The notes beneath the pieces were generated by a model that saw only the letters and a program-made list of their open reading frames with translations, had not been told where the DNA came from and searched no databases. This document shows, in pieces, positions 322 through 51,998 of a stretch of 64,000 nucleotides of DNA (positions within the stretch are counted from its first letter, which is position 1; each line of letters opens with the position of its first letter). Source of the stretch: Alcanivorax sp. DP30 (GTDB taxonomy: Bacteria > Pseudomonadota > Gammaproteobacteria > Pseudomonadales > Alcanivoracaceae); assembly GCF_009882945.1 (NCBI RefSeq), contig NZ_WTUY01000004.1, positions 611,341 through 675,340 of the forward strand, given 5' to 3'. The position numbers and the translations under genes are program-made.

Positions 322-464
322 GCAAGCGACAAGCTTCAAGCTGCAAGGCGCGGTAAAAGCTCTTTGATTCGGAACCTCTGTGCCCGCGCCCTGAGGTGAA
401 TCGCGGCGAAAATGTCCAAACACCCTACAAGCTGCCCTCGCGTTGTAGCTTGTAGCTTTAGCTA
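322..464. repeat. Heptamer-armed inverted element, copy A
   Basis: The left arm is CAAGCGA CAAGCTT CAAGCTG CAAG and the right arm is its inverted counterpart (GTTGTAGCTTGTAGCTT). Between them is a core with a GC-rich stretch (TGCCCGCGCC ... CGCGGCG). It fills the gap between the antiporter tail and the SDR gene; the right arm runs almost to the ribosome-binding site of the SDR gene. Confidence 0.75.
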
Positions 465-474
465 AGGAATTCAC

Positions 475-1284
475 ATGGCCCGTTTCGATAATCACCGCAT
501 TCTGATCACCGGCGCCGGCGCCGGCATTGGCGCACTGATGGCGGAGGAGTTTGCCAAGCAGGGGGCAGAGGTGATCGTGACTGCCCGCCGCATCACCGCG
601 GCCCGCGAAGTGGCCGACCGGATCAAGGCCTCCGGCGGCAAGGCCCATGCCTATGTACTGGATGTGAGCAAGATTGCCTCCATTGCCAAATTTCGCGACA
701 AGCTCCATGACGAGGTCGGCCCGATCACGGCGCTGATCAATAATGCCGGGGTGGTGTTCGGTGGCGAGTTCGAACAAGTGGAGCTGGAACAGCACCTCAA
801 TACCTTTCGCATCAACAGCGAAGGACTGATGGCCACCACCCATGCCTTCCTCAATGATCTGATCAAGGCGAAACAGGGCTATCTGGTCAACATCGCCAGC
901 GCTTCTGCCTTTGTGGGCCTGCCCTATGGCAGCACCTATGCCGCCAGCAAATGGGCGGTGGTGGGTTTCTCCGAATCCATCCGCCTGGAGCTGGATGTGC
1001 GCAAAATCAAGAACGTGGATGTGACCACGGTCTGCCCCAGCTATATCTCCACCGGCATGTTCGACGGCGTGAAGACGCCGCTGCTAACCCCCATGCTCAC
1101 TCCGGAGAAGGTGGTGAACAGCATCATCAAGGGCATGCTGAAAAAAGACAGCTTCGTGATCGAACCCCCCATCGCCAAATCCACCGAACTGCTCAAGGCC
1201 GCCCTGCCCCGCAAGATCTGGGACGAAGTGGCCTACCGGATCGGGGTGTCCACGTCCATGTACAGCTGGAAGGGGAAGAAATAG
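475..1284 (+). CDS. Short-chain dehydrogenase/reductase (SDR)
   Basis: A classical SDR of 269 residues that should bind NAD(P)(H) and oxidise or reduce a carbonyl or alcohol; the substrate cannot be read from sequence. The dinucleotide motif TGAGAGIG is at residues 12-19, NNAG at 89-92, a serine at about 142 and YAASK at 155-159, so the Ser-Tyr-Lys catalytic set is complete. After residue 190 the chain is rich in basic residues, as in SDRs that act on fatty or membrane-linked substrates. The start at ATG 475 is preceded by AAGGA. The nearest neighbours are separated by repeats, so it is probably transcribed alone. Confidence 0.9.
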   Translation: MARFDNHRILITGAGAGIGALMAEEFAKQGAEVIVTARRITAAREVADRIKASGGKAHAYVLDVSKIASIAKFRDKLHDEVGPITALINNAGVVFGGEFEQVELEQHLNTFRINSEGLMATTHAFLNDLIKAKQGYLVNIASASAFVGLPYGSTYAASKWAVVGFSESIRLELDVRKIKNVDVTTVCPSYISTGMFDGVKTPLLTPMLTPEKVVNSIIKGMLKKDSFVIEPPIAKSTELLKAALPRKIWDEVAYRIGVSTSMYSWKGKK

Positions 1285-1305
1285 CGGCGAGCAAACCCTT
1301 TCTAT

Positions 1306-1587
1306 GAAGCCGCTGTAGAACGTGCCTTGAGGTGCGATCGGAGCCGCTGTAGGAGCCTGCCCGCAGGCGATCCGAGCTTCGGCGAGGTAAGGATTCCAGA
1401 AGCGAGTTTCGAGTACCGAGTTTCGAAAACCTAAAACCGGTAGCCGGTACAAGGTTTGAGGTTCTGCCTTTCGAAACCCGGTACTCGCAACTCGAACCAG
1501 TTTACCTCGCTTAGGCTCGGATCGCTTGCAGGCAAGCTCCTACAATTGCCCGATTCGCGCCTCAAGCGGCGCTCCTACAGCGGCTTC
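1306..1587. repeat. Nested inverted-repeat cluster (REP pairs around a CGAGTTT-armed element)
   Basis: Four layers of inverted repeat share one centre. The outer perfect 13-bp arms are 1306-1318 and 1575-1587 (GAAGCCGCTGTAG). Next come 11-bp arms at 1367-1377 and 1515-1525 (GCGATCCGAGC) and 9-bp arms at 1382-1390 and 1502-1510 (GCGAGGTAA). The innermost layer is a heptamer-armed element at 1401-1496. The outer layers include REP-like GTAGGAGC and CTCCTAC words. The 522-base gap before the next gene otherwise shows nothing coding. Confidence 0.85.
1401..1496. repeat. Heptamer-armed element, CGAGTTT class, copy K
   Basis: The left arm reads GCGAGTT TCGAGTA CCGAGTT TCGAAAA and the right arm TTTCGAAACCCGGTACTCG, its inverted counterpart. 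The core contains GAGGTTCTGCC, also found (inverted) in the copy at 44621. Confidence 0.75.
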
Positions 1588-1806
1588 GTTGCGGTTTTTT
1601 TTGTTTTCCTCTCAGCTCGTGGCTAGCAGCTCGCAGCTCAATCCCCCGTGAATACCCATTCACCCTAACGCCGCGGCCTTTGCGCCTTGGCAGTCAATGC
1701 CTTTGCCCTTGCTTTCCCCAACAATGCGCCCCGTGATCCGCTGTCCGATAAAGACTATTCAAAGGTTCTTTATGACAGCCTGACTGATTCTGACGAGGGA
1801 TTTCCC

Positions 1807-8757: not shown

Positions 8758-8908
8758 TGAAAGTGAAAAGTTGAAACGCGGAACAGGGCGCCATTTTTTG
8801 CCATTGCCTGCCCGCGATTCACGGCGATGGCGCGGGCGCGGCCGTTCAAAACCGGGGACACACCACGCGCTTTTTCACTTTCAACTTTGAACTTTGAACT
8901 TTGAACTC
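8758..8908. repeat. Heptamer-armed inverted element with ACTTTGA arms, copy I
   Basis: The left arm is TGAAAGT GAAAAGT TGAAACG, and the right arm is ACTTTCA followed by three exact ACTTTGA heptamers and ACTCGG. The core (CGCGG, then TGCCCGCGA, then GCGCGG, then CGCG) matches the core of the AGCTACA-armed copies, so it belongs to the same element with a different arm sequence. It fills the gap between atfA and the mutarotase gene. Confidence 0.75.
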
Positions 8909-10291: not shown

Positions 10292-10514
10292 CCCCGCCTC
10301 TGCCGTAGGAGCGTCGGTTATTCGCTTCGCTCACCCCTTTCGGGGCCGCCTTGACAGACCTTCCTTCGCTGCGCTCGATGACGGCGCGATTCCAAACCAG
10401 GATCAGAACAAATAGGGTTCTAATTTCTGTGTACCCTTTGGCCTCTGTGGCCAATATCGCTTTTAAAGGGTTTTGGTGATCGCGCCGCGAGCGACGCTCC
10501 TACGGCGGGGAGGG
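10292..10514. repeat. REP composite downstream of the RAYT transposase
   Basis: Outer REP-like arms (GCCGTAGGAGCGTC and GCGACGCTCCTACGGC) flank further partial REP words and a CCTCTGTGGCC segment related to the core of the composite at 36749. This fills the 332-base gap between the cold-shock terminator and the transposase gene; no gene is seen in it. Confidence 0.75.
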
Positions 10515-10541
10515 GTTTCCCGTGTATGAGGTTATGGCTCT

Positions 10542-10985
10542 CTACAGCCAGACGGCATTCCAATAGGGATAAAAGCGGACGCTTGTTGTAATGCCTGCAC
10601 GTAACGGGTTGGCAACGATATAGCGGGCTATCTGTACACGGTCTTCCTCTTCACGAAGAGCATGATCATGGAATCCCCGCTGCCAGATGGATTGCCCCAT
10701 CGCTCTTGCTGTCTGGCTTTTCAGCATTCCGACTGTTTGTGACAGTGAATACTTGCCGGATAGAGACAACAGCCAATGAAAGTGGTCGGGCATGACCACA
10801 AAACACAGGGATTCACCCGCTCCGATATTTTCCATGGCGATGAAATTACGGCATAACAGCCTCGCAGCCTCTGTTTCATGAAACCAGGGAAGTCTGTTTC
10901 GGGTAACAGCAGTCACCAGATATTGTTGTTGCTGGATCGAGACACGTCCGCGTCGGAGCTTGTGTCCATGATGTAAGGAATCCAT
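10542..10985 (-). CDS. REP-associated tyrosine transposase (RAYT, Y1 HUH family)
   Basis: A single-strand DNA transposase-like enzyme of the IS200/IS605-related Y1 family, the group held to bind and spread REP sequences. From ATG 10985 the protein has 147 residues. The HUH motif is H68-F-H70 in MPDHFHWLL, and the likely nucleophile is Y122 in RYIVANPLRAG. A longer frame reaches back to 11132, but it would translate through a REP and starts with unlike sequence, so the short start is preferred. REP composites lie on both sides (10292-10514 and 11064-11258), the usual RAYT arrangement. It lacks insertion-sequence ends and looks domesticated. Confidence 0.88.
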   Translation of the reverse strand: MDSLHHGHKLRRGRVSIQQQQYLVTAVTRNRLPWFHETEAARLLCRNFIAMENIGAGESLCFVVMPDHFHWLLSLSGKYSLSQTVGMLKSQTARAMGQSIWQRGFHDHALREEEDRVQIARYIVANPLRAGITTSVRFYPYWNAVWL

Positions 10986-11063
10986 GAGCTCAAGGATGCT
11001 TGACGATGCTGCGCAGGGATAAGCGCCAAACGCTGAAAAAGGTGTAGGCAATACTCCAGCCTT

Positions 11064-11258
11064 GCCGTAGGAGCGTTCGCTTGCGGCGCGATCATCGAGC
11101 TTTTTTAGAAACGATGTTTGCACAGAGATCATCGGGCACGCAGAGAGTAGAACCTGCTTTCCTCAGTGAACTCTGTGCTCTCTGGGGTGCAATTGCTGTT
11201 GGTCTTGGTCTCGAATCGCGCCGTCACCGAGCGAAGCGAATAACCGACGATCCTACGC
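11064..11258. repeat. REP composite upstream of the RAYT transposase
   Basis: It starts with GCCGTAGGAGCG...GCGGCGCGAT and ends with an inverted partner (TCGCGCCGTCACC ... GATCCTACG). The middle carries CACAGAG and TTCCTCAGTGAACTCTGTGC, as in the composite at 36749-36924. It fills most of the 297 bases between the transposase and the YgjP-type gene. Confidence 0.75.
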
Positions 11259-40180: not shown

Positions 40181-40741
40181 ATGGAGCGTTGCCCCTGGTG
40201 CGGAGAAGACCCGCTGTATCAGCACTACCACGACCATGAATGGGGTGTCCCTGACTACGATGACCGCTCGTTGTTTGAGTGTCTGAATCTGGAGGGCGCC
40301 CAGGCGGGACTCAGCTGGATCACGGTGTTGCGCAAGCGCGATCGTTATCGGGAAGTGTTTGACGGCTTCGATGCGCAAAGGATCGTTGGCTATGACGACG
40401 CCAAGGTGGCCGAACTGTTGGCTGACCCGGGTATTATCCGCAACCGGCTCAAGGTCAGAGCAACAATCGGCAATGCCCGTGCTTATCTGGAATTGCGCGA
40501 AGAAGGCCGCAATTTCAGCGATTTTCTGTGGGATTTTGTCGATGGAAGCCCGCAGATCAATCACTACGCCACCCTCAAGGACGTCCCCGCTGCCACCCCC
40601 GAGGCCGAGGCCATGAGCAAGGCGCTCAAGAAACGTGGCTTCAAATTTGTTGGCCCCACCATTGTCTATGCCTTCATGCAGGCCACCGGGATGGTCAACG
40701 ACCACCTTGTCAGTTGTCCGCGGCACCGGGAATTGAGCTGA
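40181..40741 (+). CDS. tag: DNA-3-methyladenine glycosylase I
   Basis: Base-excision enzyme that removes 3-methyladenine. The 186 residues keep the zinc ligands at their E. coli positions, C4 and H17 at the N-terminus and H175 and C179 near the end, and the active region GLSWITVLRKRDRYREVF. Divergent from glyQ, as in pseudomonads. A heptamer-armed element begins 6 bases past the stop codon. Confidence 0.97.
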   Translation: MERCPWCGEDPLYQHYHDHEWGVPDYDDRSLFECLNLEGAQAGLSWITVLRKRDRYREVFDGFDAQRIVGYDDAKVAELLADPGIIRNRLKVRATIGNARAYLELREEGRNFSDFLWDFVDGSPQINHYATLKDVPAATPEAEAMSKALKKRGFKFVGPTIVYAFMQATGMVNDHLVSCPRHRELS

Positions 40742-40746
40742 AAAAA

Positions 40747-40890
40747 CAAGCTACAAGCTGCAACACGGGGCACCGCTTGTGTGTATCTGCGGGAAAGCGA
40801 TTCCGCGCTGAAACCCGGCAGCGCGGGCTCAGCGGTTCAGATTAAAGAACAAGCATTGATTCGTGTTGTAGTTTGCAGCTGGAAGCTTGC
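40747..40890. repeat. Heptamer-armed inverted element, copy C
   Basis: The left arm is CAAGCTACAAGCTGCAACACG and the right arm CGTGTTGTAGTTTGCAGCTGG. The central hairpin has perfect 8-bp arms, CCGCGCTG and CAGCGCGG. Confidence 0.8.
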
Positions 40891-40974
40891 TCCTCAAAAG
40901 TTGGTACACCCCTTGCTCTGTTCTTCATTGAGGAGAGTGGAAAAACAGACAGGACGTCTGAAGGGTGCATCGTC

Positions 40975-41706
40975 ATGAATAACAGCAAACCTATCGCCAT
41001 TATCAAAACGGGCTCTACCTACCCGCAGATCAGCAATCATTATGGTGATTTTGAAGACTGGATAACCCAGGGGCTTGGCGTGGCGGCACCCGTTTGGGTG
41101 ATCAATGTCCCGGCGGGGGACGCCATGCCGGAAGCGTCAGAGCTGGCAGGCGTTGTCATCACCGGTTCCCACGCTATGGTGACGGATCAGGCCGAGTGGA
41201 TGACAGGTCTGATCCACTGGCTCTATCGCGTCATTCATCATCAGCCAGCTCTGCCGGTACTGGGGTTGTGCTTCGGCCACCAGCTGCTGGCCCAGACCCT
41301 GGGTGGCGAAGTGGCCGACAACCCCATGGGGATCGAGGTGGGAACGGTGGCGTTAAGGCTGACGCCGGCTGGCCACCAGGACGCCCTGTTAAGCGCCATG
41401 GAGAATCATCCGTGGGCACAAGTGGTGCACAAGCAGTCAGTGCTTACTCCGCCGCCAGGGGCTGCGGTTCTGGCCAGTAATGTCCATGATGCCTGTCAGG
41501 CCTTTCGCTACGGTGACCGGGTCTGGGGGGTGCAATTCCATCCGGAATTCAGCGCCGATGTGATGCGTGCGTATCTCCAGGCGCTCAGTGGCGACAGCCT
41601 GACCCAACAGCAGGTGGATACCTATCTACAGGACGTTCGCGAATGTGAGGATGCCAGCAGTATCCTGGCCGGGTTTGCGCGCTTGATTCTGCCGCAGGTG
41701 GCTTGA
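40975..41706 (+). CDS. Class I glutamine amidotransferase
   Basis: A 243-residue GATase of the stand-alone GMP-synthase-like type, cytosolic. The nucleophilic cysteine is C99 in GLCFGHQ; the partner His and Glu are in VQFHPEF. The acceptor substrate is unknown; some relatives hydrolyse gamma-glutamyl compounds. ATG 40975 has AAGGG upstream and excludes an extension through the repeat. It lies between two heptamer-armed elements (copies C and D). Confidence 0.88.
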   Translation: MNNSKPIAIIKTGSTYPQISNHYGDFEDWITQGLGVAAPVWVINVPAGDAMPEASELAGVVITGSHAMVTDQAEWMTGLIHWLYRVIHHQPALPVLGLCFGHQLLAQTLGGEVADNPMGIEVGTVALRLTPAGHQDALLSAMENHPWAQVVHKQSVLTPPPGAAVLASNVHDACQAFRYGDRVWGVQFHPEFSADVMRAYLQALSGDSLTQQQVDTYLQDVRECEDASSILAGFARLILPQVA

Positions 41707-41714
41707 GAGCAGGA

Positions 41715-41845
41715 GCAAGCTACAACGCGGCAGTTATCGTCATGATCAGACCGTCTTGCCCGCGCACCCGGACGAGGTGCGCGGCGAGAGCATTTCGGAA
41801 CACGATGAACATTCCCGTGGTGCAGCCTGTAGCTTGAAGCTTGCT
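41715..41845. repeat. Heptamer-armed inverted element, copy D
   Basis: Short arms (CAAGCTACAACGCGG; CTGTAGCTTGAAGCTTG) and a central hairpin with perfect 9-bp arms CCGCGCACC and GGTGCGCGG. It fills the gap between two converging genes and ends 2 bases from the stop codon of the DUF4197 gene. Confidence 0.8.
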
Positions 41846-41847
41846 TC

Positions 41848-42573
41848 TTATTCCGCCGGCTGGGTGTTGGAGCCGAACACCGCGCCGATCAGCGCACTGC
41901 CCTGCTGCATGGGGTTCTGGCGGATCAGGGTTTCCTGCTCACCGATGCGGGTATAGAGCTGGTCCATGCTGTTGTCGATAACATAGTTTTCCAGGTCCAG
42001 ATTCGGCTTGTTAGTGAGCGGTAACTTATCGTAGGCGGCAAGGAACGTCTGGTATTGATCATAAAAACCGGTCTTGCGCAGGTTCTCTTCCACGATCGGC
42101 TGGAAGCGCTGGCGCAGGCTGCTTTCGGTCTCACCCCGGAAGTAACGGGTGGCGGCGGTATCCCCGCCCTGGATGATGCCCAGGGCATCGTCCACGCTCA
42201 TGGCATTGATGGCGTTCTTGAACACCGGTGCCCCGGCGGCCACTGCCTTCTCGGCGCCACGGTTCATGGCGGTTTCCACCTGATCCACATACTTGCCCAG
42301 GCCAAACTGGCGGAGGGTGTTGGTAACCGGTTCGGCGGCTTCAGGCAACTTCAGATTCATGGCCCCTTCCTGGGACAGCTGCGCAGCCGCAGCATCGGTG
42401 CCCTTGATCAGTGCTGCCTTGATCCCGTCGGCCAGCTTTTCGTCGGTGTTGTACCCGGCGCTCTTGGCCATGTCATTACTCATGCTCACCCAGGGCATGA
42501 CAGCTTCCATGTTCTGACAGCCGGCCAGGGCCAGGCCCAGAGAAAGAGGGACGATAGGCAGCAGTTTCTTCAC
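41848..42573 (-). CDS. DUF4197 lipoprotein
   Basis: A predicted lipoprotein of 241 residues: signal VKKLLPIVPLSLGLALAGC with cysteine as the lipidated residue, then the helical DUF4197 domain (LADGIKAALIKGTDAAAAQL ... GGDTAATRYFRGETESSL ... YDKLP). The function of this family is unknown. I prefer GTG 42573, which has AAGGAG six bases upstream, over ATG 42600. No sorting Asp is seen after the cysteine (CQNM), so it should go to the outer membrane. Confidence 0.88.
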   Translation of the reverse strand: MKKLLPIVPLSLGLALAGCQNMEAVMPWVSMSNDMAKSAGYNTDEKLADGIKAALIKGTDAAAAQLSQEGAMNLKLPEAAEPVTNTLRQFGLGKYVDQVETAMNRGAEKAVAAGAPVFKNAINAMSVDDALGIIQGGDTAATRYFRGETESSLRQRFQPIVEENLRKTGFYDQYQTFLAAYDKLPLTNKPNLDLENYVIDNSMDQLYTRIGEQETLIRQNPMQQGSALIGAVFGSNTQPAE

Positions 42574-42641
42574 GATGATCTCCTTGTTTTGGCTGTTCAT
42601 GCTACTGCATAGGAAGGGGCTGCTAAACACTTCTTTGAGGG

Positions 42642-42793
42642 GCAAGTTGCAAGCTTCAGGCTGCAACGCGGATCAGGCTGGTTGTAACTGATGGAAGATG
42701 CGCCGCGATTCACGGATCAGTGTTGCGTGGGCATAGCCTTTCAGGGCTCAATAAGCATTCTCGTGCCTTGCAGCTTGAAGCTTGTAGCTTGCT
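42642..42793. repeat. Heptamer-armed inverted element, copy E
   Basis: The left arm is GCAAGTTGCAAGCTTCAGG and the right arm GCAGCTTGAAGCTTGTAGC. The central GC hairpin is degenerate in this copy. The right arm ends 2 bases before the next gene's ATG, so it replaces the normal ribosome-binding region. Confidence 0.7.
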
Positions 42794-42795
42794 CT

Positions 42796-43425
42796 ATGAC
42801 CGACGACGATTACCGCGAACAGCACAAACAACGCCTGGCCTATATGCCCTGGCTGTATGGCCGGCTGAAGCCGAAGCACCGCGCCTGGGCGGCGCCGTGG
42901 CAGGCGGCGATTCAGCAGCGGTTGATGCAATTGGAGACGGTACACTTCGGCGCGGACTGCTTTGTGGCACCCCAGGCTGTGCTGCTGGCTGAGCCGGGTC
43001 GCGACATTATCGTGGCAGATGGAAGCCAGATCGCAGCAGATTGCGTCATTCATGGGCCCGTTAGCCTGGGGCGTCGCGTCAGTATCAATCACCATGTGAG
43101 CCTGGATGGCGGGGCTGCGGGTATTCATATCGGCGATGACAGTCGCATTGCCGCCTACTGTACCCTCTACGCGTTTAATCACGGCATGGCTGCAGATCGC
43201 CCGGTTCGCGAACAGCCGGTGAGCTCACAGGGCATTCATATTGGTCGCGATGTCTGGATCGGCGCCCGGGTGGGTATCGTTGATGGTGTCACCATTGGCG
43301 ACCATGCCGTGGTGGGCATGGGGGCGGTGGTAACGCGGGATGTGCCGCCCTGGACCATCGTGGCCGGCAATCCGGCCCGCCCCATCGGCCGCCGACCAGG
43401 TGCTCCTGAACAGCATGTGTCATAA
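42796..43425 (+). CDS. Hexapeptide-repeat sugar O-acetyltransferase (LbH family)
   Basis: A 209-residue acyltransferase with a left-handed beta-helix built from [LIV]-G-x4 hexapeptide turns (SLGRRVSI, GIHIGDD, GIHIGRDVWIGARVGIVDGVTIGDHAVVGMGAVV), ending in the typical VAGNPAR(PI). Probably acetyl-CoA dependent, acting on a sugar or surface polysaccharide; the acceptor is unknown. The ATG immediately follows a repeat arm and no Shine-Dalgarno sequence is visible. Confidence 0.85.
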   Translation: MTDDDYREQHKQRLAYMPWLYGRLKPKHRAWAAPWQAAIQQRLMQLETVHFGADCFVAPQAVLLAEPGRDIIVADGSQIAADCVIHGPVSLGRRVSINHHVSLDGGAAGIHIGDDSRIAAYCTLYAFNHGMAADRPVREQPVSSQGIHIGRDVWIGARVGIVDGVTIGDHAVVGMGAVVTRDVPPWTIVAGNPARPIGRRPGAPEQHVS

Positions 43426-43526
43426 GCCGTAACATTCTCTTTATTGAACATTGTTTAGCAGCTATGGCTAACTGTCATCAGTTAATTGAACATCGTTAAA
43501 CAAAAACCGGTAAAGAGGGATTTTCA

Positions 43527-43799
43527 ATGGATGAAAGCGCGATTCAACGCCACTCCAGCGGCTGGCTGTTCTATGTGAAGGCTGCCTTTGCCATCAGCCT
43601 GGGGCTCATGGTGCTGGGCATTGTCTGGCTGCCCACGGATCGGTGGATCAAGGGTTACCTGGTGATGGGCATCATGTTCGTGGTGGGCTCCACCATCACC
43701 CTGGCCAAGACCCTGCGCGATGACCACGAGGCACGGCGACTGATCAACCGTATCAGCGATGCCAAGACCGAGCGGTTGTTGAAGGAATATACAGAGTGA
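43527..43799 (+). CDS. YiaA/YiaB-type inner-membrane protein
   Basis: A 90-residue protein with two membrane segments (VKAAFAISLGLMVLGIVWL, KGYLVMGIMFVVGSTITLAK) and a charged cytosolic tail, matching a single YiaA/YiaB domain. These proteins are induced by envelope stress but have no known activity. RBS AGAGGGA precedes the start. The next gene is a PspA homologue, a common pairing. Confidence 0.83.
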   Translation: MDESAIQRHSSGWLFYVKAAFAISLGLMVLGIVWLPTDRWIKGYLVMGIMFVVGSTITLAKTLRDDHEARRLINRISDAKTERLLKEYTE

Positions 43800-43802
43800 G
43801 AC

Positions 43803-43885
43803 AGATCGGACGTCTGACGTCGGGAGTCGGACGCCAGAAGACAATAACGTTTTAGCGTCGGAGATCAGACTTCCGACGTCAGACA
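43803..43885. repeat. Heptamer-armed element, GACGTCG class, copy M
   Basis: The left arm is GGACGTC TGACGTC GGGAGTC GGACGCC and the right arm AGCGTCG GAGATCA GACTTCC GACGTCA GAC, which pair as an inverted repeat around AACAATAACGTTTT. It lies between yiaA/B and pspA. Confidence 0.7.
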
Positions 43886-43896
43886 AGGAGATTTTC

Positions 43897-44601
43897 ATGG
43901 CTACTGCATGGACCAAACTGAAAACCCTGATGCGCGGACAGGCGCGGGTGAGCATGGAACAGATCGTCAATGCCAACGACATGTTGTTGCTGGATCAGCA
44001 GCTGTATGAAACCGAGCAGGCATTACGTGATGCCCGCCGTCAGCTGGCGCGGTTGATGGCTGAGGAGAAGCTGAACCAACGCCGCAACACCGAACTGGCA
44101 GCCAAGGTACGGCATTATGAAGACGGTGCCCGCCAGGCACTGGCCGGGGATGATGAAACACTGGCGCTGGATATTGGCAAGCGACTGGCTGATCTGGAAC
44201 AGCAGCAGAGCCGCCTTGCCCGCCAGGGGGTGACACTGGAACACCAGAAGACCGAGTTCCAGACGTTTATCAAACAGGCGGCGGATACCCTGAAAACCCT
44301 CCGTCAGGAACAATCCCTGGCGCGCACCCAGGAAGCGTTATTTGGTGAGTCGCAACAACGGGACAACGAACACCGCGGGCTGGCCCAGAGACTGTGTGAC
44401 AGCCAACAGACGCTACAGCAGATTCAGCAACGGCAGGAAGAATGTCGCCTGTTGTGGCAAAGTGAGGTGCAACTGGGGGCGGACCTGACGGTATCCACAG
44501 GAGACAGCCTGGATCAGCGCATGGCGGAAGCGGGTATTGGCGATAGCCAGAGCCGTCGGGCGCAGGAGATACTGGCGGGGCTCCGTGAAGCAAAGGCTTA
44601 G
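43897..44601 (+). CDS. PspA/IM30 family protein
   Basis: A 234-residue, almost wholly helical coiled-coil protein of the PspA/Vipp1 class, which protects the inner membrane under stress by forming membrane-bound assemblies. Long heptad runs occur (LYETEQALRDARRQLARL, LADLEQQQSRLARQ). The family's amphipathic first helix is present (MATAWTKLKTLMRGQ). AAGGAG precedes ATG 43897. It probably forms a unit with the upstream YiaA/B gene across the repeat. Confidence 0.86.
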   Translation: MATAWTKLKTLMRGQARVSMEQIVNANDMLLLDQQLYETEQALRDARRQLARLMAEEKLNQRRNTELAAKVRHYEDGARQALAGDDETLALDIGKRLADLEQQQSRLARQGVTLEHQKTEFQTFIKQAADTLKTLRQEQSLARTQEALFGESQQRDNEHRGLAQRLCDSQQTLQQIQQRQEECRLLWQSEVQLGADLTVSTGDSLDQRMAEAGIGDSQSRRAQEILAGLREAKA

Positions 44602-44620
44602 GCATCCAAACAGTTTCCAG

Positions 44621-44718
44621 TTGCGAGTATCGAGTCTCGAAAGGCAAAACCTCACAGGAAAAACGGTTGTGAGAGATTCAGCTTGCTGAACGAAGCTTTT
44701 CGCTTTTCGCAACTCGCT
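44621..44718. repeat. Heptamer-armed element, CGAGTTT class, copy J
   Basis: The left arm is GCGAGTA TCGAGTC TCGAAAG and the right arm CTTTTCGCTTTTCGCAACTCGC. The GGCAAAACCTC core is the reverse complement of part of copy K, so J is the same element in opposite orientation. Confidence 0.72.
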
Positions 44719-44785
44719 TCTGGGCTTGGCGGAAATGCCCTGGGGCATTTCCGCCCACGACAAGATTAAAGAACAAGGAAATTCG

Positions 44786-45382
44786 GTGGCACGTCGTAAC
44801 CAACACAGCCGTGAGGAACTGCAGGCCCTGGCCATTCAGGCGGTGCGGGATCTGGTGGCTGAAAACGGGCTGGAAAAGCTCAGTGTGCGCAAAGTGGCGG
44901 ACCGTATCGGCTACACCGCCGGCATGCTTTACCACGTATTCGCCAATCTGGATGATCTGATTCTGCATGCCAATGCCGATACCCTGGCGCAGTTGCTTGA
45001 GGCCATGAAAGACTGTCCGGCCAGTACGCCCCGGGAACAGCTTCACCACATGGCCCGGGTGTATGTTTCCATGGCCCGTGAGCAAACCGCGCTGTGGAAG
45101 ATGGTGTTCCTCCACCAGATGCAGAACGCCGCCGAGGTACCGGAATGGTATCGGGGAAAAACCGCTACCCTGTTCGAACTGGTGGAAAGCGGCATGTCGC
45201 AACTGGCGGAACGGCAAAGCGCCGAGCAGATTCATTTGGCTGCACGGACGTTATGGGGCAGTGTCCATGGTATTGCGGTACTGGCCGCGGATGACAAGCT
45301 GGTGGTAGCCGGGGATGTGGATGAGCAGGCGATGATTGAATCGTTGCTGCAGCATTATCTGAATAGCTGGGCGGGGGAGTAG
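44786..45382 (+). CDS. TetR/AcrR family transcriptional regulator
   Basis: A 198-residue repressor-type regulator. The N-terminal helix-turn-helix is clear (LEKLSVRKVADRIGYTAGML, then YHVFANLDDLI), and the C-terminal part is a helical ligand domain with a WHG-like motif (LWGSVHGIAVL). I start at GTG 44786, with AAGGA upstream. Its target may be the MFS-acyltransferase gene just downstream, separated by copy F; that is inference from position. Confidence 0.9.
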   Translation: MARRNQHSREELQALAIQAVRDLVAENGLEKLSVRKVADRIGYTAGMLYHVFANLDDLILHANADTLAQLLEAMKDCPASTPREQLHHMARVYVSMAREQTALWKMVFLHQMQNAAEVPEWYRGKTATLFELVESGMSQLAERQSAEQIHLAARTLWGSVHGIAVLAADDKLVVAGDVDEQAMIESLLQHYLNSWAGE

Positions 45383-45532
45383 GCAAGCTACAAGCTTCAA
45401 GCTGCAACACGGGGTCAGGTCTGCCCTTGCTGAAAGGAATGCGCTCCGCGCTGTGATGCTGCGGCGCGGCGTTGGCCTTTCCGTATGGCAACAATCTTGA
45501 GTCGCGTTGCAGCTTGCAGCTTGAAGCTTGTC
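45383..45532. repeat. Heptamer-armed inverted element, copy F
   Basis: The left arm is CAAGCTACAAGCTTCAAGCTG and the right arm GTTGCAGCTTGCAGCTTGAAG; the best-formed pair in the window. The central hairpin is CCGCGCTGTGATGCTGCGGC... with GCGCGG. It begins directly at the TetR stop codon. Confidence 0.82.
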
Positions 45533-45566
45533 TCTTCTGCAAACCAAGGAAGAAAAAGGCATCACC

Positions 45567-47438
45567 ATGAAAAAAGGGTTGTTCTCATTACTGGCGTCAC
45601 GTCGTTTCGGGCCGTTCTTTTTTACCCAGTTCCTCGGGGCCTTTAACGATAACGTTTTTCGTCAGGCATTGATCCTGCTGATCGCCTCCGGCGTGGTGAC
45701 GTCGGTCAGCGTCAACACCCTGAACAACATGGCGTTGGCCTTGTTCATCGTCCCGTTTTTTCTGTTTTCTGCCCTGGCGGGACAAGTGGCAGACAAGTAC
45801 GACAAGGCCTTTCTGGTGCGCAAGATCAAGTTCGTGGAGATCTGCATCATGGTCGTGGCGGCCATCGGGTTCTATTTTGATGCTGTTTACTTCCTGCTTG
45901 GCGTGCTGTTCTGCATGGGTCTGCAGTCCACCTTCTTTGGCCCCATTAAATATTCCATCATCCCCCAGCATCTGGATGACCGGGAACTGGTATCGGGCAA
46001 TGCCCTGGTCGAGATGGGCACCTTCCTGGCTATCCTGTTGGGTTCCATTTCCGGTGTGTTGTTGAAAATGGATGGTGTAGGTGATGGCGTGGTGTCTATC
46101 GCCGTGATTGGTCTGGCGGTACTGGGTTATCTGGCCGCACGGGGTATACCCCATGCCCCCGCTGCAGACAGTTCAGTGAAGTTGAACTGGAATCTGTTCA
46201 AGGAAACCTGGCACATCATCGGCTATGCCCGTGAAGTGAAATCCGTCTGGATGTGTGTGCTGGGGATCTCCTGGTTCTGGTTTCTGGGCGCGGCCTACAC
46301 CACCCAGCTCAAGGTCTATGTGGATGACTACCTGTTTGGTACCGATGGCCTGTATGCCCTGCTGCTGGGCACCTTCTCCATCGGTATTGGCCTGGGTTCT
46401 TTCCTCTGTGAAAAGCTGTCCGGCAAACGCGTAGAGCTGGGTCTGGTGCCATTGGGTTCCATCGGCCTGAGCATGTTCGGTGTTGACCTGTTTTTCTCTT
46501 ACGCGGGGCTGGCAGGCGCTGGTCAGGTCGATGTGGCGGGCTTCCTGCAGCAGGCTGGTGGCTATCGGGTGTTGATGGATCTGCTGGGTATCGGGGTGTT
46601 CGGTGGTTTTTATATTGTGCCGCTGTTTGCCTTTATCCAGCACCGCTCCAATCCGCACCACCTGGCGCGGATCATCGCCGCCAACAATATTCTTAACGCC
46701 CTGTTGATGGTGCTGTCGGCGGCGGCGGGCATTGTGTTTATCGGCATGCTGGAATTCACCGTGCCGGAATTTTTCCTGGCCTTGGCCCTGGCCAACATTG
46801 TGGTAGCCGCCTATATCTATACCGTGGTGCCGGAATTCCTCATCCGTCTGCTGGTGTGGATGCTGACGCATACCATGTACCGGGTGAAGCACGAAGGCAT
46901 GGATAACATTCCCGACGATGGCCCCTGCGTGCTGGTATGCAACCATGTGAGTTATGTGGATGCCCTGCTACTGGCCGGGGCCATCCGTCGCCCGGTGCGG
47001 TTTGTCATGTTCAAACCCATCTATGACATGCCTTTGCTGAACTATATTTTCCGTACCGGCAAAACCATTCCCATCGATTCGAAAACCCGCAACCCGGAAA
47101 TCTACGAGCGTGCCTTTGTGCGTATCGAGGAGGAGCTGGCCGCGGGGGAAGTGGTTTGTATCTTCCCGGAAGGAAAGCTGACCGGCGATGGCGAAGTGGA
47201 TGAGTTCAAAGCGGGTATCGAAAAGATCATCGCCACCACCCCGGTACCGGTGATCCCCATGGCCTTGTCCGGTCTGTGGGGCAGCTTTTTCAGTCACAAG
47301 GATGGTCCTGCCCTGTCGCGCCTCCCCCGCCGTTTCTGGTCACGGATCAAGCTGACCGTGGGTAAGGCGGTGGCTCCGGAGGCCGTGAATGCCGTGGATC
47401 TGCGCAATCGGGTAATGGCCATGCGCGAGAGGCCCTGA
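45567..47438 (+). CDS. MFS transporter fused to a lysophospholipid acyltransferase (LplT-Aas-like)
   Basis: A 623-residue inner-membrane fusion. Residues 1 to about 420 form a twelve-helix MFS transporter with the LplT-like start FTQFLGAFNDNVFRQALILL. Residues about 430-623 are a PlsC domain with NHVSYVDALLL and FPEGKLTGDGEVDEF. Such fusions are thought to flip lysophospholipids inward and re-acylate them. The acyl-CoA/ACP ligase domain found in some family members is missing here. ATG 45567 is chosen from codon context. Confidence 0.9.
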   Translation: MKKGLFSLLASRRFGPFFFTQFLGAFNDNVFRQALILLIASGVVTSVSVNTLNNMALALFIVPFFLFSALAGQVADKYDKAFLVRKIKFVEICIMVVAAIGFYFDAVYFLLGVLFCMGLQSTFFGPIKYSIIPQHLDDRELVSGNALVEMGTFLAILLGSISGVLLKMDGVGDGVVSIAVIGLAVLGYLAARGIPHAPAADSSVKLNWNLFKETWHIIGYAREVKSVWMCVLGISWFWFLGAAYTTQLKVYVDDYLFGTDGLYALLLGTFSIGIGLGSFLCEKLSGKRVELGLVPLGSIGLSMFGVDLFFSYAGLAGAGQVDVAGFLQQAGGYRVLMDLLGIGVFGGFYIVPLFAFIQHRSNPHHLARIIAANNILNALLMVLSAAAGIVFIGMLEFTVPEFFLALALANIVVAAYIYTVVPEFLIRLLVWMLTHTMYRVKHEGMDNIPDDGPCVLVCNHVSYVDALLLAGAIRRPVRFVMFKPIYDMPLLNYIFRTGKTIPIDSKTRNPEIYERAFVRIEEELAAGEVVCIFPEGKLTGDGEVDEFKAGIEKIIATTPVPVIPMALSGLWGSFFSHKDGPALSRLPRRFWSRIKLTVGKAVAPEAVNAVDLRNRVMAMRERP

Positions 47439-47580
47439 CACAACAGATTAACCGTTCCTTTTACCGGGTTGCGCAATCCATACGCACAGTAACTTGCAGA
47501 TTGGCGAAAACCCCGCACACTCAATAATAATGATCGGGGCGTTTACCTGCCCCCCATGACAATAACAACAGGAACATGGC

Positions 47581-48237
47581 GTGTCGGAATCTACCCTGTC
47601 TCCCTCTGGTTTACGGACCAAGCTACAGCAGCTGCTTTTGCAGCTGCCCCCGGTGCAACGTGCCGATGAACGCTTTCATCAGGTAGAGCACGATGTGCTG
47701 CAGAACCTCAAGCTGCGGCTGGAAGCGCTGCAGACCCCTGGCGAACTGGCGGCCCCCCCGGAAACACTGGGCCAGTTGCTGGATGTCTCCATGGAGCAAA
47801 GCCAGGCCCAGGCCCAGACCATGCTGGTACGGCAGATCCTGTCTGGGTTGTCTGCAGACGAAGCGCGCATTCTCGCGGCCCTGTCTGACGGCAGCGCCTT
47901 TCCCATGTTGACGGTTTACAGCGGTGGCCGATTTTCACGGGGAGATGTGGTGTGTCGGCATTCCAATGTGGGCCGGGCCGCCGGCACGCAATGCACCGAC
48001 ATGATCGGGTATTACCTGCACCGTCTTTTTCAGCGGGGCTGGCTCATGTCGACGGCGTTTGAAGAAGCGAATCGTACGGATTATGAGCTGCTGGAAGGCG
48101 ACAGCGATTTTCGCAAGGCGCTGGGACAGTTACAGCAACACTGGCCCAAGCTGAAACCCCAACGGGAATCGCTGCGTTTCAGTCCGTTGGGCCATCAGCT
48201 GTGGCAGCAACTGGTCGCTGACGGGGAAGAGGGGTAA
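47581..48237 (+). CDS. Cytosolic protein, possibly Abi-alpha/DUF4393-like
   Basis: A 218-residue protein with no signal or membrane segment. The middle part (LSADEARILAALSDGSAFPMLTVY, then YLHRLFQRGWLM) resembles the C-terminal region of DUF4393 (Abi-alpha) proteins, which look like a winged helix; I rate that match as weak. It starts at GTG 47581 with AGGAA upstream. The stop codon is 3 bases before the next gene, so they are coupled. Function unknown. Confidence 0.6.
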   Translation: MSESTLSPSGLRTKLQQLLLQLPPVQRADERFHQVEHDVLQNLKLRLEALQTPGELAAPPETLGQLLDVSMEQSQAQAQTMLVRQILSGLSADEARILAALSDGSAFPMLTVYSGGRFSRGDVVCRHSNVGRAAGTQCTDMIGYYLHRLFQRGWLMSTAFEEANRTDYELLEGDSDFRKALGQLQQHWPKLKPQRESLRFSPLGHQLWQQLVADGEEG

Positions 48238-48240
48238 ACC

Positions 48241-49497
48241 GTGATTACTGATCTGGATCTGATTCTGGCCGATCTGCAGGCCAACTGGCTGCTTTATCTG
48301 TCCATGCCCTTTGTGGCTGCGGCCATTGGTTATGGCACCAAGGTGGTGGCCATCAAGATGATGTTCAAGCCGCTCAAGTTTGTAGGGATTCGCCCCTATC
48401 TGGGCTGGCAGGGCATTGTGCCGAGCAAGTCCGCCACCATGGCCAGCATTGCCTGTGACCTGATGATGGAACGGCTGCTCAAACCGGAAGATGTGTTTGA
48501 TCGTCTGGACCCCAACCGCGTCGCAGAAGAAATCCGCGAACCGTTAATTCGTTCAGTGGAAGACATCACCCGCGAGGTGGCGGCGAAATACCAGCCGGGG
48601 CTGTGGGAATCGGCGCCGGAGCGGGTCAAGACCATGATCATCCAGCGCATCCAGAATGAAGCGCCGCACATGGTCGAGCTGATCATGGAGGACATCAAGA
48701 CCAACATCACCCGGGTGTTCGATCTCAAGGACCTGGTGATCAATGCGCTGGTGCGGGACAAGGAACTGCTCAACCGGGTGTTCCTCGAAGCGGGCCATGT
48801 GGAATTCAAGTTCATTCGCAACTCCGGCATCTGGTTCGGCTTTGCCATCGGTATTGTTCAGGCGGTGGTGTGGGCTTTTACCCACAACATCTGGGTGATT
48901 CCCCTGTTCGGGCTGTTCACCGGCTGGTTCACGGACTGGCTGGCCCTGAAGATGATCTTCAATCCGAAGACCCCTACCCGGTATCTGGGCCTGTTCGAGT
49001 GGCAGGGGCTGTTCCTCAAGCGTCGCAAACAGGTAGCGGCCCGCTATGGCGAACTGGTGGCCAGCGAGATCGTCACCCCGGCGGCAGTGATTGAAGCCAT
49101 CCTCAAGGGGCCCCTGTCGGACCGTCTGTTCGGCCTGGTGCAAAAGCAGGTGCAACGGACCATGGATGAGCAGGCCGGTCTGGCCAAGCCGCTGGTGGTG
49201 TTTGCCGTGGGCAGCACCAAGTATCAGGAAATGAAGCGCACCGTGGCTGACAAGGTGATGGAGCACTTGCCGGAAACCCTCGGTCATATGGAAGCCTATG
49301 CCGAAGAAGCCATGGACCTGAAGAACCTGCTGGTGAACAAGATGCAGGAGCTGACCGAAGAGGAATTTGAAGGCCTGCTGCGACCCGCATTCCAGCAGGA
49401 CGAGTGGATCCTGATTACGGTGGGGGCCGTGTTGGGCTTCCTGGTGGGCGAGCTACAGGTCCATGTGATGCTGCACTTTGCAGTGCCGATATCGTGA
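48241..49497 (+). CDS. DUF445 family inner-membrane protein
   Basis: A 418-residue protein of the DUF445 family of unknown role. The N-terminal segment LLYLSMPFVAAAIGYGTKVVAIKMMF and the repeated inner version GLFTGWFTDWLALKMIF show the family's duplicated motif. Further membrane segments follow at about residues 200-235 and at the end (ILITVGAVLGFLVGELQV). It starts at GTG 48241 with GAGGGG overlapping the preceding stop codon, and its own stop overlaps the next gene's GTG. Confidence 0.85.
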   Translation: MITDLDLILADLQANWLLYLSMPFVAAAIGYGTKVVAIKMMFKPLKFVGIRPYLGWQGIVPSKSATMASIACDLMMERLLKPEDVFDRLDPNRVAEEIREPLIRSVEDITREVAAKYQPGLWESAPERVKTMIIQRIQNEAPHMVELIMEDIKTNITRVFDLKDLVINALVRDKELLNRVFLEAGHVEFKFIRNSGIWFGFAIGIVQAVVWAFTHNIWVIPLFGLFTGWFTDWLALKMIFNPKTPTRYLGLFEWQGLFLKRRKQVAARYGELVASEIVTPAAVIEAILKGPLSDRLFGLVQKQVQRTMDEQAGLAKPLVVFAVGSTKYQEMKRTVADKVMEHLPETLGHMEAYAEEAMDLKNLLVNKMQELTEEEFEGLLRPAFQQDEWILITVGAVLGFLVGELQVHVMLHFAVPIS

Positions 49498-49730
49498 AAG
49501 GACCAATGTTATTGGCGGTCGTCACGCTGCTGTCGGGTTGTACCCTGGGCGGCAGCAGCGGGAGTTTTTCCGACTGGGATGATGATGAATGCGACCGCAA
49601 CATGTACGGTCACAGCGCTGGCATGGCCGCCTATAATCAGCAATCTGCCCATACGGAAGAACTGCGGGAGTTCTGGGCGGAAGACCGCCGCTTCTATGAA
49701 GAGCGGGCCGGTGACGATTGTGATGACTGA
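49494..49730 (+). CDS. Small acidic lipoprotein
   Basis: A 78-residue protein that begins at GTG 49494, overlapping the TGA of the DUF445 gene (GTGA). The signal VKGPMLLAVVTLLSGC has a lipobox LSGC, so it should be lipid-anchored. The mature chain is short, acidic and Tyr/His-rich (DWDDDECDRNMYGHS, YEERAGDDCDD) with two extra cysteines. Not recognised as a known family; coupling suggests it works with the DUF445 protein. Confidence 0.6.
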   Translation: MKGPMLLAVVTLLSGCTLGGSSGSFSDWDDDECDRNMYGHSAGMAAYNQQSAHTEELREFWAEDRRFYEERAGDDCDD

Positions 49731-49918
49731 GTCGGCGGATCAGTGTCTGCCTTCCTGCTCCGTCACCCTCCCTCTTCCGTCTCCTCCCTTCTCCAGGAGT
49801 GTGCAAATTCAGCAGGCTGAACGCCTGTTCACGTAAATGTAAGACATTAGCCACTATCCATCTTGTTTTTGCGCATTAAAATGTCCCGCTTGAATAATAA
49901 GGAGTGGGGGACATTGGA

Positions 49919-51268
49919 ATGCTGGAACAACTCAAGAAACTGATGCCATTCAAGAGTGTGGCCGGGGCGGTGGTGATCGGCCTGGTGCTGCTGATCGTCG
50001 GTAACAAATCCATTTTTTACGCTGAGCCGGGTTACGTGTATCACGTGCGGACCCTGATGGGGAACGAAGAGGTGGTCTCTGATGTGGGCTACCAGTTCTA
50101 CCTGTTTGGCCGCTGGAACTCCTGGAAGCGTGCGCTCACCGTGCAGGCGGTTCGCGGGGGTAGCGAGACCCTGGATTATGTGGAAGTGGAGAGTTCGGAA
50201 ACTTCTGCGGCCCTGCCTCCCCAGAACATCATGTTCCTGGATCAGGTGGACGCCAACGCCCAGGCCACGGTGCGGTTCACCATCCCCACCGACAAGGAAA
50301 GCTTCCTGCATCTGGCCCACGAATACCGCACCCCGGAAAATCTGCTGCGCACAGCCTTGATTCCGGCGTTCAAGGAAACCCTGCAGGCCAATGCTTCTTT
50401 GATGAGTGCAGAAGAGTACTACTCCGGTGGCCGTACCGAGTTCAATACTGAATTTGAAAACCAGATGATCAACGGCATCTATATTGTCCGCCGTGAGGAA
50501 GTCAGCGAAAAACGGGTGGGAGATATCAAGGGCTCCGCCAACGTGGCCATGGGCACCGAGCAGCAAGACTATGGCGATGACAGCAAGGTGGTATTCGTGG
50601 TTCGCAAGATGACCGACGAAGCAGGTATTCCGTTGCGTAAATCCCAGCGTTTCATCGATTACGGGGTGACGGTTGTTGAAGCCCGTGTTACCCAGATGGA
50701 TCCCAACCAGCGTTTTGTGGAGCGTATGCAGCTCAAGCAGAAAGCGTCTGCGGATCGTGCCATAGCCCGCGAGCAACGGGTGCAGGAAGAGGAGCAGCGT
50801 CTGCTGGCCATTGCCCGCGGTGAGCGTGAAGTGGCCGAGCGTCAGGCCAAGGCCAAGGTAGACCAGATCCAGCGCACCACCGAAGCGGAAACCGAGAAGC
50901 AGCTGGCGATTACCCAGGCACAGAAACAGAAAGAGCAGTCTGAAATCGAGAAAGAAACCGCACAGATCCAGCTGGAAAAGGCGCGCATCGAGGCCGAGAC
51001 CCGTCGCACCCTGGCCGATGCAGAGGCCTACCAGAAGAAAGCGGTACTGCAGGCGGATAACGCCCTGGCGCAGAAGCTGGATGCGGAAATCGAGATCCAG
51101 AAGATCTGGGCCCAGGCCTTTGCCAACCGCAAGGTGCCCCAGTACGTGTTTGGTGGTGGCGATGGCAGCACCCCCACGGGCTCTGACGGGGAAACCCGCG
51201 CCTTCATGCAGATGCTGACCCTGGATGCGGCCAAGCGTCTCAGCTACGACCGGGATGTGAAGAAATAA
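49919..51268 (+). CDS. SPFH/Band 7 domain membrane protein
   Basis: A 449-residue stomatin/prohibitin-like protein that likely forms oligomeric scaffolds in inner-membrane microdomains. One N-terminal membrane segment (VAGAVVIGLVLLIVGNKSIF) leads into the SPFH domain, then a long Glu/Ala/Lys coiled coil (residues about 270-400). ATG 49919 gives the natural start; a GTG at 49904 is also in frame. No protease partner (NfeD type) is adjacent. Copy G of the heptamer-armed element begins at the base after its stop codon. Confidence 0.85.
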   Translation: MLEQLKKLMPFKSVAGAVVIGLVLLIVGNKSIFYAEPGYVYHVRTLMGNEEVVSDVGYQFYLFGRWNSWKRALTVQAVRGGSETLDYVEVESSETSAALPPQNIMFLDQVDANAQATVRFTIPTDKESFLHLAHEYRTPENLLRTALIPAFKETLQANASLMSAEEYYSGGRTEFNTEFENQMINGIYIVRREEVSEKRVGDIKGSANVAMGTEQQDYGDDSKVVFVVRKMTDEAGIPLRKSQRFIDYGVTVVEARVTQMDPNQRFVERMQLKQKASADRAIAREQRVQEEEQRLLAIARGEREVAERQAKAKVDQIQRTTEAETEKQLAITQAQKQKEQSEIEKETAQIQLEKARIEAETRRTLADAEAYQKKAVLQADNALAQKLDAEIEIQKIWAQAFANRKVPQYVFGGGDGSTPTGSDGETRAFMQMLTLDAAKRLSYDRDVKK

Positions 51269-51405
51269 GCTACAAGCTGCAACGCGACTCATTGTGAGCG
51301 CCAGCCTTATAGCCCGTGCCCGCGCCGATGCTATCAGCGCGGGGTCCGGGCAAAAGAGGATCCACAGGCCTGGCTTCGTGTTGTAGCTTGCAGCTTGAGG
51401 CTTGT
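51269..51405. repeat. Heptamer-armed inverted element, copy G
   Basis: The left arm is AGCTACAAGCTGCAACGCG, immediately after the TAA of the SPFH gene; the right arm is GTTGTAGCTTGCAGCTTGAG. The central hairpin is CCCGCGC ... GCGCGGG. It is very similar in core sequence to copy H, 455 bases further on. Confidence 0.82.
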
Positions 51406-51437
51406 ACCCCTTTCCCTGCAGCCGCTACAGTAGCCCC

Positions 51438-51854
51438 ATGCTGCAAATCACCCGTAACATCATCATCCCGGAAAACGAAATCGACCTGCAGGCCATCCGT
51501 GCCCAGGGCAGCGGTGGGCAGAACGTCAACAAGGTGTCCTCTGCCATCCACCTGCGTTTCGATATCCGCGCCTCCTCCCTGCCCGATATTTACAAGGAAC
51601 GCCTGCTGGCCCTCAGCGACCAGCGCATCAATAGCGATGGGGTGGTGGTGATCAAGGCGCAGCAGTTCCGTACCCAGGAAAAGAACAAGGAAAACGCCCT
51701 CGCCCGTCTGGGCCAGCTGATCAAGAGCGTTACTGTGGAGCAGAAAACGCGCAAAGCCACCCGCCCGACGCTGGGTAGCAAGAAGCGCCGCATGGACAAG
51801 AAAACCAAGCGTGGCCAGATCAAGTCCCTGCGTGGCAAGGTAGATCCGGGGTAA
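51438..51854 (+). CDS. arfB: Alternative ribosome-rescue factor ArfB (YaeJ)
   Basis: A 138-residue class-I-release-factor-like peptidyl-tRNA hydrolase that frees ribosomes stalled without a stop codon. The GGQ motif is at residues 26-28 (AQGSGGQNVNKVSSA), and the Lys/Arg tail that enters the empty mRNA channel is present (KKRRMDKKTKRGQIKSLRGK). The gene sits between two heptamer-armed elements. ATG 51438 is preferred over an upstream in-frame ATG inside the repeat region. Confidence 0.93.
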   Translation: MLQITRNIIIPENEIDLQAIRAQGSGGQNVNKVSSAIHLRFDIRASSLPDIYKERLLALSDQRINSDGVVVIKAQQFRTQEKNKENALARLGQLIKSVTVEQKTRKATRPTLGSKKRRMDKKTKRGQIKSLRGKVDPG

Positions 51855-51860
51855 CCAGCC

Positions 51861-51998
51861 GCAAGCTGCAAGCTACAACGCGACTCACTATGAGTGCCGA
51901 TTGTGATACTCGGGCCCGCGCCCATACCATCAGCGCGAAGTCCGGACAAAAAAACGGCACCGTCCTTGATCCGTGTTGCAGCTTGCAGCTCGCCGCTC
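51861..51998. repeat. Heptamer-armed inverted element, copy H
   Basis: The left arm is CAAGCTGCAAGCTACAACGCG and the right arm GTGTTGCAGCTTGCAGCTCG. It shares with copy G the stretches CGCGACTCA, CCCGCGCC and ATCAGCGCG in the same order. Confidence 0.8.

Follow-up and report, generated by a model that had tools for sequence, protein, structure and literature searches.

We analysed a window (the whole stretch of DNA studied, 64 kb) of Alcanivorax sp. DP30 (GCF_009882945.1, NZ_WTUY01000004.1, positions 611,341-675,340 of the forward strand; own genome, G000), in which a first-pass annotation had described a dispersed intergenic element with arms of seven-base repeats around a GC hairpin. The element is a palindrome that occurs in many copies with a marked excess of period 7, lies as near-identical copies at separate loci, persists at fixed sites between species with constrained arms and core, and has undergone both inversion in place and exchange of its heptamers. 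On balance, these palindromes probably form a family of dispersed elements resembling miniature inverted-repeat transposable elements (MITEs), in which the heptamer arms would serve as the recognition array of a putative trans-acting recombinase.

Structure, copy number and seven-base period

Alignments of 25 copies and 36 half-copies showed that the element (approximately 130-165 bp) consists of a half-site and its inverse. Read inward, the half-site comprises (CAAGCTN)2-4, CAA, CRCGG (or GGCRCG), approximately 24-28 variable bases and GCCGTGCCCGCG, and each half-site supplies one strand of the GC hairpin at the core. The loop between the halves is usually short; in some genome copies it holds more than 200 extra nt, other repeats included. 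The annotated order of arm and core was retained, with the amendment that both sides are complete half-sites, which makes the element symmetric; the AGCTACA-like heptamer was kept as a seven-base unit and corrected to AGCTNCA/CAAGCTN with one variable base. Like MITEs, the element is short and non-coding, has inverted terminal repeats and occurs in many copies.

Direct reading of the sequence located all eight annotated copies at roughly their annotated coordinates and with the annotated plan, but the set was incomplete: a ninth copy, with the heptamer AAAGTTN, also lies in the window (Table 1). A scan with the pattern CAAGCTNCAAGCTNCAAG, allowing up to 3 mismatches, returned 42 window matches, whereas 100 dinucleotide shuffles of the window averaged 0.72 and never exceeded 4; 12 of the 42 fall in one tandem array outside the palindromes, which is possibly an expanded single arm. 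A sequence model (R1) was trained on 25 own CAAGCTN copies, 7 of them from the window, so that its window matches are not independent; the pattern scan and the period scan described below are independent of it. R1 also matched the ninth copy (8760-8895), though trained on CAAGCTN copies. Single-stranded DNA folding of the eight copies yielded z-scores of -1.5 to -5.0 (5 of 8 below -3), and copy 1 had no match in the plasmid collection.

In the own genome, R1 gave at least 135 strand matches (E ≤ 1) from at least 70 distinct places, a lower bound obtained by scoring 150 of 1544 first-look candidates. The proposed extension to other Alcanivorax succeeded, with matches in all 17 genomes of the genus, own included; strand matches numbered 29 in G001, 5 in G002 and 84-149 in the remaining genus genomes. 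An order-wide search with stricter filters and 12 candidates scored per genome matched at least 16 of 244 genomes (3 in the genus, 2 in another genus of the family and 11 outside the family), and many of the matches outside the family were, by eye, heptamer stems without the core. The dispersed element of the annotation, with its period-7 arms and conserved core, was upheld, and its copies far outnumber what chance would give.

Inverted arms with an internal period, lying within 330 bp of each other, were then counted in 190,007 bp of the own genome (the window and seven 18-kb stretches picked by coordinate). Period 7 accounted for 12 pairs, compared to none for periods 5, 6, 8, 9, 10 and 11 and 0, 0 and 0 pairs in three Markov-1 simulations; the words of period 7 were CAAGCTN, AAAGTTN, CGAGTNN, GTCNGAN, ATTAATN and CGAGCTA. 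Twenty further 20-kb stretches from eleven genomes yielded 13 pairs of period 7 (two sharing one arm), one of period 8 and none of periods 5, 6, 9 and 10. Period-7 pairs were present in G197 (another genus of the family), G241 (another family of the order), G012, G004, G008 and G007, and absent from the sampled stretches of G206, G110, G138, G021 and G001. Among 28 loci around one gene, which overlap the copy-6 site of genomes already used and are not independent, there were 7 pairs of period 7 and none of periods 5, 6 and 8-11. The periodicity is thus unusually sharp, with 7 and hardly any other value. Not all period-7 pairs carry the chassis of this element. Further period-7 palindromes, with the words GTCNGAN, ATTAATN and GATAATN, were seen at window 43811-43885, L065:9665-9805, L070:3198-3322 and L061:1062-1200.

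Dispersal, site persistence, inversion and heptamer exchange

One genome, G012, contains a burst of 27 AAAGTTN copies in 320 kb (mean pairwise identity 0.71, best 0.937), in which the arms and core are the most conserved parts. The 320 kb was picked around the burst, and the 27 pairs are those of ordinary spacing; two unpaired arms and three pairs whose spacing was longer or mixed were excluded. Matches between different loci of this genome reached 94% over approximately 150-160 bp, so that near-identical copies stand at separate loci, as in MITE dispersal. The single contig of G012 (C1) appears to repeat its two ends (46822/3938592; 66168/3957938; constant offset 3,891,770), an assembly redundancy.

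We compared window positions 39000-53600 with 16 other genomes, where the same places held, by eye, a decayed copy, a CGAGTNN palindrome, a GTAGGAG repetitive extragenic palindromic (REP) repeat or nothing recognisable. An orthologous place was present in the fetched G012 or G014 loci for 48 of 67 own copies. Orientation was scored against a null from which orthologs of the same site had been removed. Among 45 sites compared in G014, 29 were direct, 1 probably direct, 5 inverted and 10 ambiguous or non-homologous; among 20 compared in G012, 9 were direct, 1 probably direct, 0 inverted and 10 ambiguous or non-homologous. Identity was then determined for 28 of the 29 same-orientation G000/G014 pairs (length filter). 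Arms (1210/1344, 90.0%), junctions (307/336, 91.4%) and cores (319/352, 90.6%) were more often identical than spacers (1391/1716, 81.1%) and loops (324/401, 80.8%); the 20-nt flanks, which are partly coding, were identical at 971 of 1120 positions. Copies therefore persist at fixed sites between species, and their arms and core change less than their spacers.

Inversion in place was seen at several sites. Copy 4 matched its G014 counterpart with an inverted score of 66 (direct 20, shuffled maximum 17.5), and copy 8 matched that of G009 with an inverted score of 43 (direct 13, shuffled maximum 14.5). At one site, the inner parts of G004 and G016 are reversed and identical except for two one-base gaps, while the flanks are colinear (91 vs 12). 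Copy 4 is one of the five G014 inversions, and the copy 8 and G004/G016 cases lie outside that set. Another of the five, L200, is ambiguous, as it has a near-perfect palindrome for a core, and copy 8 against G013 is borderline (inverted 17.5, direct 11.5, shuffled maximum 17.0), so that no inversion is claimed there. One intergenic site (loci L265-L281) carries CAAGCTN, AAAGTTN or CGAGTNN palindromes or REP repeats, depending on the species, as if it were a shared landing place.

The heptamer itself has also changed. At the copy-5 site, the arms are CAAGCTN in G014, where the inner part is homologous, and AAAGTTN on both sides in G012, where the inner part is still homologous to that of the own copy (30 compared to a null maximum of 18.5). 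The heptamer was thus exchanged at least once, with both arms switched and the inner part retained. AAAGTTN arms also occur at six other places in G012, and CACGCAN arms at one place in G012 and one in G014, all with inner parts that are not recognisably homologous; some of the arm changes at such G012 sites are plain replacement by the young AAAGTTN family. At the G004/G016 site, G008 and G010 carry AAAGTTN arms and an inner part with a modest reverse match to G014 (24.5 and 20.5, compared to shuffled maxima of 19.5 and 18.0), and the inner part of G008 matches that of G016 at 18.0, under the shuffled maximum of 21.0; these two genomes are a weak candidate for a further exchange. Orthologs differ in their number of units, and a whole arm can change its type. 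Some copies are mixed: CAAGCTN stands on one arm and CAAGTTN on the other in copy 2 and L055, and L037 combines CAAGCTN with CGAGCTN, which fits homogenisation within a single arm. At L363:977-1150, a CAAGCTN half-site is followed at its core directly by an AAAGTTN arm and CGAGTNN-like remnants, making a three-word composite.

Probable recognition arrays, hairpin core and competing explanations

The first-pass annotation had named paired changes as support, and these were found in the core hairpin but not in the arm helix. In the alignment used (A2), the observed double changes, covariation score and percentage paired of the core helix were reached by 3, 11 and 14 of 500 shuffles, respectively. 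The arm helix was 88.0% paired compared to 88.2% in shuffles, and its covariation score was reached by 381 of 500. Taken as a whole-palindrome RNA, arms plus core gave marginal covariation (percentage paired 36/500, covariation score 51/500 shuffles); this candidate was rejected, as the signal sits in the core. Using 140 of 193 copies from three genomes, which share orthologs so that rows are not independent, we found left-right matches above shuffle at core-stem positions 0, +1, +2, -2, -3 and -4; position 0 also stood out when G000 (p = 0.001) and G014 (p = 0.003) were tested separately. Few others of the 28 positions tested stood out, among them -9 and +11, outside the stem, which had p < 0.05 in the pooled set.

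The variable base of the heptamer was compared between arms in the 136 of 193 copies that could be parsed, again from three genomes that share orthologs, so that rows are not independent. The N bases did not agree (0.392 vs 0.465, 0.350 vs 0.336 and 0.312 vs 0.378 for units 1-3), and arm-to-arm copying by palindrome correction was rejected on this independence. The type of heptamer was mostly concordant, with xAAGTT on both arms in 10 copies, on one arm in 4 and on neither in 122. In the CAAGCTN type, N was C in just 4 of 682 units 1-3; C is common at this position in AAAGTTN arms, so that its avoidance is specific to one word. Lacking covariation and carrying independent N bases, the arms behave like a series of recognition units and not like a paired stem. 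Judged from sequence, the arms thus resemble a row of binding sites, and the core has the look of a genuine hairpin.

From these observations we infer a protein, a reaction and a role for the core. A trans-acting protein would bind the heptamer arrays unit by unit at both ends; it may be a recombinase or transposase, perhaps aided by a DNA-binding protein of the host. The hairpin at the core would either be extruded or be read as a structure. Recombination of one inverted arm with the other would turn the element round, and slippage inside an arm would alter the number of units and allow new heptamers to become fixed. For such reading of heptads, ParB (omega) of plasmid pSM19035 offers a biochemical precedent: the available account of its parS describes six sites, one protein dimer per unit and full activity with at least 4 contiguous units (PMC9499535). 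The likeness to the present element lies in the array of 7-bp units, as parS is a plasmid partition site and not a dispersed palindrome.

Several results weigh against a mobile element served by a recombinase. The 27 recent G012 copies showed no target-site duplication above threshold, in a scan of offsets -3 to +4 and k of 2-9 whose element ends were taken from the arm scan and are accurate only to within a few bases, which weakens the test. Some transposons make no target-site duplication. No enzyme gene was found between paired arms in the 320 kb of G012, where the two arm pairs more than 300 bp apart span 418 and 481 bp, too short for an enzyme; in the own genome, close arm pairs span at most approximately 380 bp among the matches listed from 150 scored half-site candidates (by eye), again with no enzyme gene. 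Solitary halves exist in the own genome, and a partner was sought in 13 further stretches with solitary or wide halves and in one 12.7-kb stretch. The one pair that faces inward (C23), with 10.7 kb between its solitary halves, contains no transposase; the interval encodes DsbD, ApbE, a two-component system, an AraC-type protein and other ordinary genes. No clean empty site was obtained beside an occupied one, and another repeat family often occupies the site; empty sites are under-sampled because loci were fetched for holding a model match. Finally, 20 of the 65 orthologous comparisons lack clear inner homology.

The copies could instead be binding arrays with a host function, kept by selection, on which a cooperative DNA-binding protein organises or regulates the chromosome in the manner of omega; we regard this as unlikely. 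Arrays with one dimer per heptad are known from the pSM19035 account, arms and core are conserved at fixed sites, and the own copies are uneven over contigs (35 on the dnaA contig compared to 19.5 expected, chi-square p = 2e-4). However, copy number differs between species, as in G001 and G002 against the rest of the genus, and a fixed regulator would resist the exchange of its heptamers. Origin-proximal enrichment, suggestive in the own genome, was not retained, as the bias in G012 disappeared without the burst region (Kolmogorov-Smirnov p = 0.015 to 0.43).

It is more doubtful that the element is a structured RNA, a transcription terminator or an mRNA 3'-end element. Gene context was counted with a home-made gene caller on 193 copies in three genomes (16 unresolved), and its raw output placed a gene over 9 of 67 own copies, so that the annotated restriction to intergenic sites is provisional. 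Of 118 copies between tandem genes, 88 are no more than 25 nt from the stop codon upstream and 37 are that close to the start codon downstream, which agrees with the abutting of stop and start codons noted in the annotation. Proximity to stop codons would suit a 3'-end element, as would the scarcity of copies in divergent gaps (6 of 61 resolved own copies, compared to 12 of 75 background gaps of at least 100 bp), although short intergenic gaps would force closeness to stop codons anyway. The core covariation also suits an RNA, and mismatches on the transcribed strand show a weak G-U excess in the core (106 G-U vs 81 A-C, p = 0.08), but the arm helix has neither covariation nor a G-U preference (95 vs 94). 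At the copy-7 site, some element-free species have, by eye, an apparent GC hairpin past the stop codon; no U-run is obvious past the hairpin of the element (by eye, no terminator scan having been run). The window had no Rfam match at gathering score, and inversion in place is tolerated.

A REPIN-like element (a paired-REP hairpin) moved by a REP-associated tyrosine transposase (RAYT), which is a Y1 transposase, is very improbable. The GTAG- and CGTC-tagged REP/REPIN systems, as far as they are described in PMC3733652, are likewise intergenic hairpin palindromes in many copies; the present element is an intergenic palindrome with a GC hairpin too, and the genome has three PF01797 genes, one in the window. 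Unlike those systems, the element has no GTAG tag adjoining the core stem (half-site alignment, by eye) and has repeated units in its arms, within which GTAG occurs as GTAGCTTG. Two of the three RAYT loci have a separate GTAGGAG-type repeat nearby, and the heptamer element is near one only, past an intervening gene. RAYT origin was rejected, as none of the three genes is flanked by the heptamer element, and the annotation was right to set the element apart from a standard REP, since it is unlike the GTAG-type REP of this genome. The window RAYT-like gene lies at 10542-11132 (-), with GTAGGAG-type REP repeats beside it at 10293-10515.

Passive origin by seven-base slippage and palindrome correction, with no trans-acting factor, is very improbable as well: heptanucleotides are the most abundant long-repeat category in most surveyed genomes, with slippage proposed, according to the available accounts (PMC4679880, PMC4692102), and unit numbers and whole-arm type do vary, but correction predicts matching N bases between arms, which were not seen, and a shared core with near-identical copies at different loci requires dispersal.

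Related systems, neighbouring repeats and significance

The preferred MITE-like reading was set against known systems. The element shares with MITEs the many short, non-coding intergenic copies with inverted ends and the bursts of near-identical copies, and departs from them in its heptamer-array ends, its inversion in place and the exchange of end sequence on a kept core; no target duplication or autonomous partner was found here (27 copies; 320 kb of G012). One system related by description is that of the paired multicopy sites of Geobacter metallireducens, predicted to be global regulator sites, where class 3 has five tandem heptanucleotides and class 1 four octanucleotides, paired on opposite strands and, in class 1, at variable distance (PMC2700814). 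The present element likewise has tandem 7-mers in opposite-strand pairs; the Geobacter repeat words differ, and a GC hairpin core, spread, inversion and word exchange are not reported in the part of that account compared. The TAACTGA (PMC4679880) and GGGAATC (PMC4692102) repeats, related by description too, are also intergenic and seven bases long; as described there, they are mainly direct, without inverted arms around a core, and TAACTGA stands mostly before start codons. BrickBuilt of Porphyromonas gingivalis is an intergenic MITE with an internal tandem repeat, which in the available description is a 23-nt repeat inside the element and not heptamer arms (PMC4596501). Within the portions compared, the literature on Geobacter sites, heptamer repeats and heptad arrays does not describe the element itself.

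Other repeats share the intergenic space of the window. A second palindrome family at 1401-1496 and 34502-34586 has CGAGTNN arms, inner TTTCGAAA ends and a short core, and in other species CGAGTNN palindromes occupy intergenic sites that hold the heptamer element here. Palindromes of GTAGGAGCG enclose other palindromes at window 1326-1566 and 36749-36924 and at L043:2075-2444, as nested intergenic repeats; those in the window contain CGAGTNN arms (1403-1494) and ACCACAGAGG (36799-36873). A DnaA C-terminal domain lies at window 29286-29492, and the dnaA region is within the window.

Table 1. Copies of the palindrome and a related tandem array in the window (positions are those of the window).
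Feature	Position	Strand	Description
Copy 1	322-465	.	CAAGCTN arms
Copy 2	11952-12115	.	Two heptamer types: left arm CAAGCYN, right arm CAAGTTN
Copy 3	40746-40892	.	CAAGCTN arms; orthologous copies in G009, G012 and G013
Copy 4	41710-41846	.	Between convergent genes; left arm short; inverted in place in G014
Copy 5	42642-42793	.	At this site G012 carries AAAGTTN arms, with a homologous inner part
Copy 6	45383-45537	.	CAAGCTN arms; R1 matches at the site in 11/16 other genus genomes
Copy 7	51259-51404	.	Starts at the stop codon of the upstream open reading frame; R1 matches at the site in 3/16 other genomes
Copy 8	51855-51999	.	Inverted in place in G009
Ninth copy	8760-8908	.	Same chassis (CGCGG, TGCCCGCG..CGCGGGC, CGCG); AAAGTTN heptamers
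Tandem array	35121-35222	+	Approximately 14 AGCTACG/AGCTACA heptamers, without inverted partner

A broader proposal, which we put forward tentatively, is that these palindromes represent a type of mobile DNA in which the ends spell an exchangeable code of seven bases, with one chassis of core hairpin and CRCGG carrying various words and with elements and cognate recognition proteins co-evolving as address systems. It draws on the presence of the same word on nearly always both arms, on the turnover that the dominant word can undergo in a lineage, and on the recurrence of inverted period-7 arms with other words and cores, both in Alcanivorax and beyond it, in a second genus of its family and a second family of the order.

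Intergenic palindromes are common in bacteria, and many of them lack an explanation. The combination of spread, in-place flips and word change points to a little-studied kind of small mobile DNA. Alcanivorax supplies natural experiments on it: copies at fixed sites, flips and a burst of recent date, and a repeat word that was replaced around a retained inner part. The search for a protein that reads seven-base arrays thereby becomes directly testable, and the result could be relevant to the paired tandem-repeat sites that were described from Geobacter in 2009.

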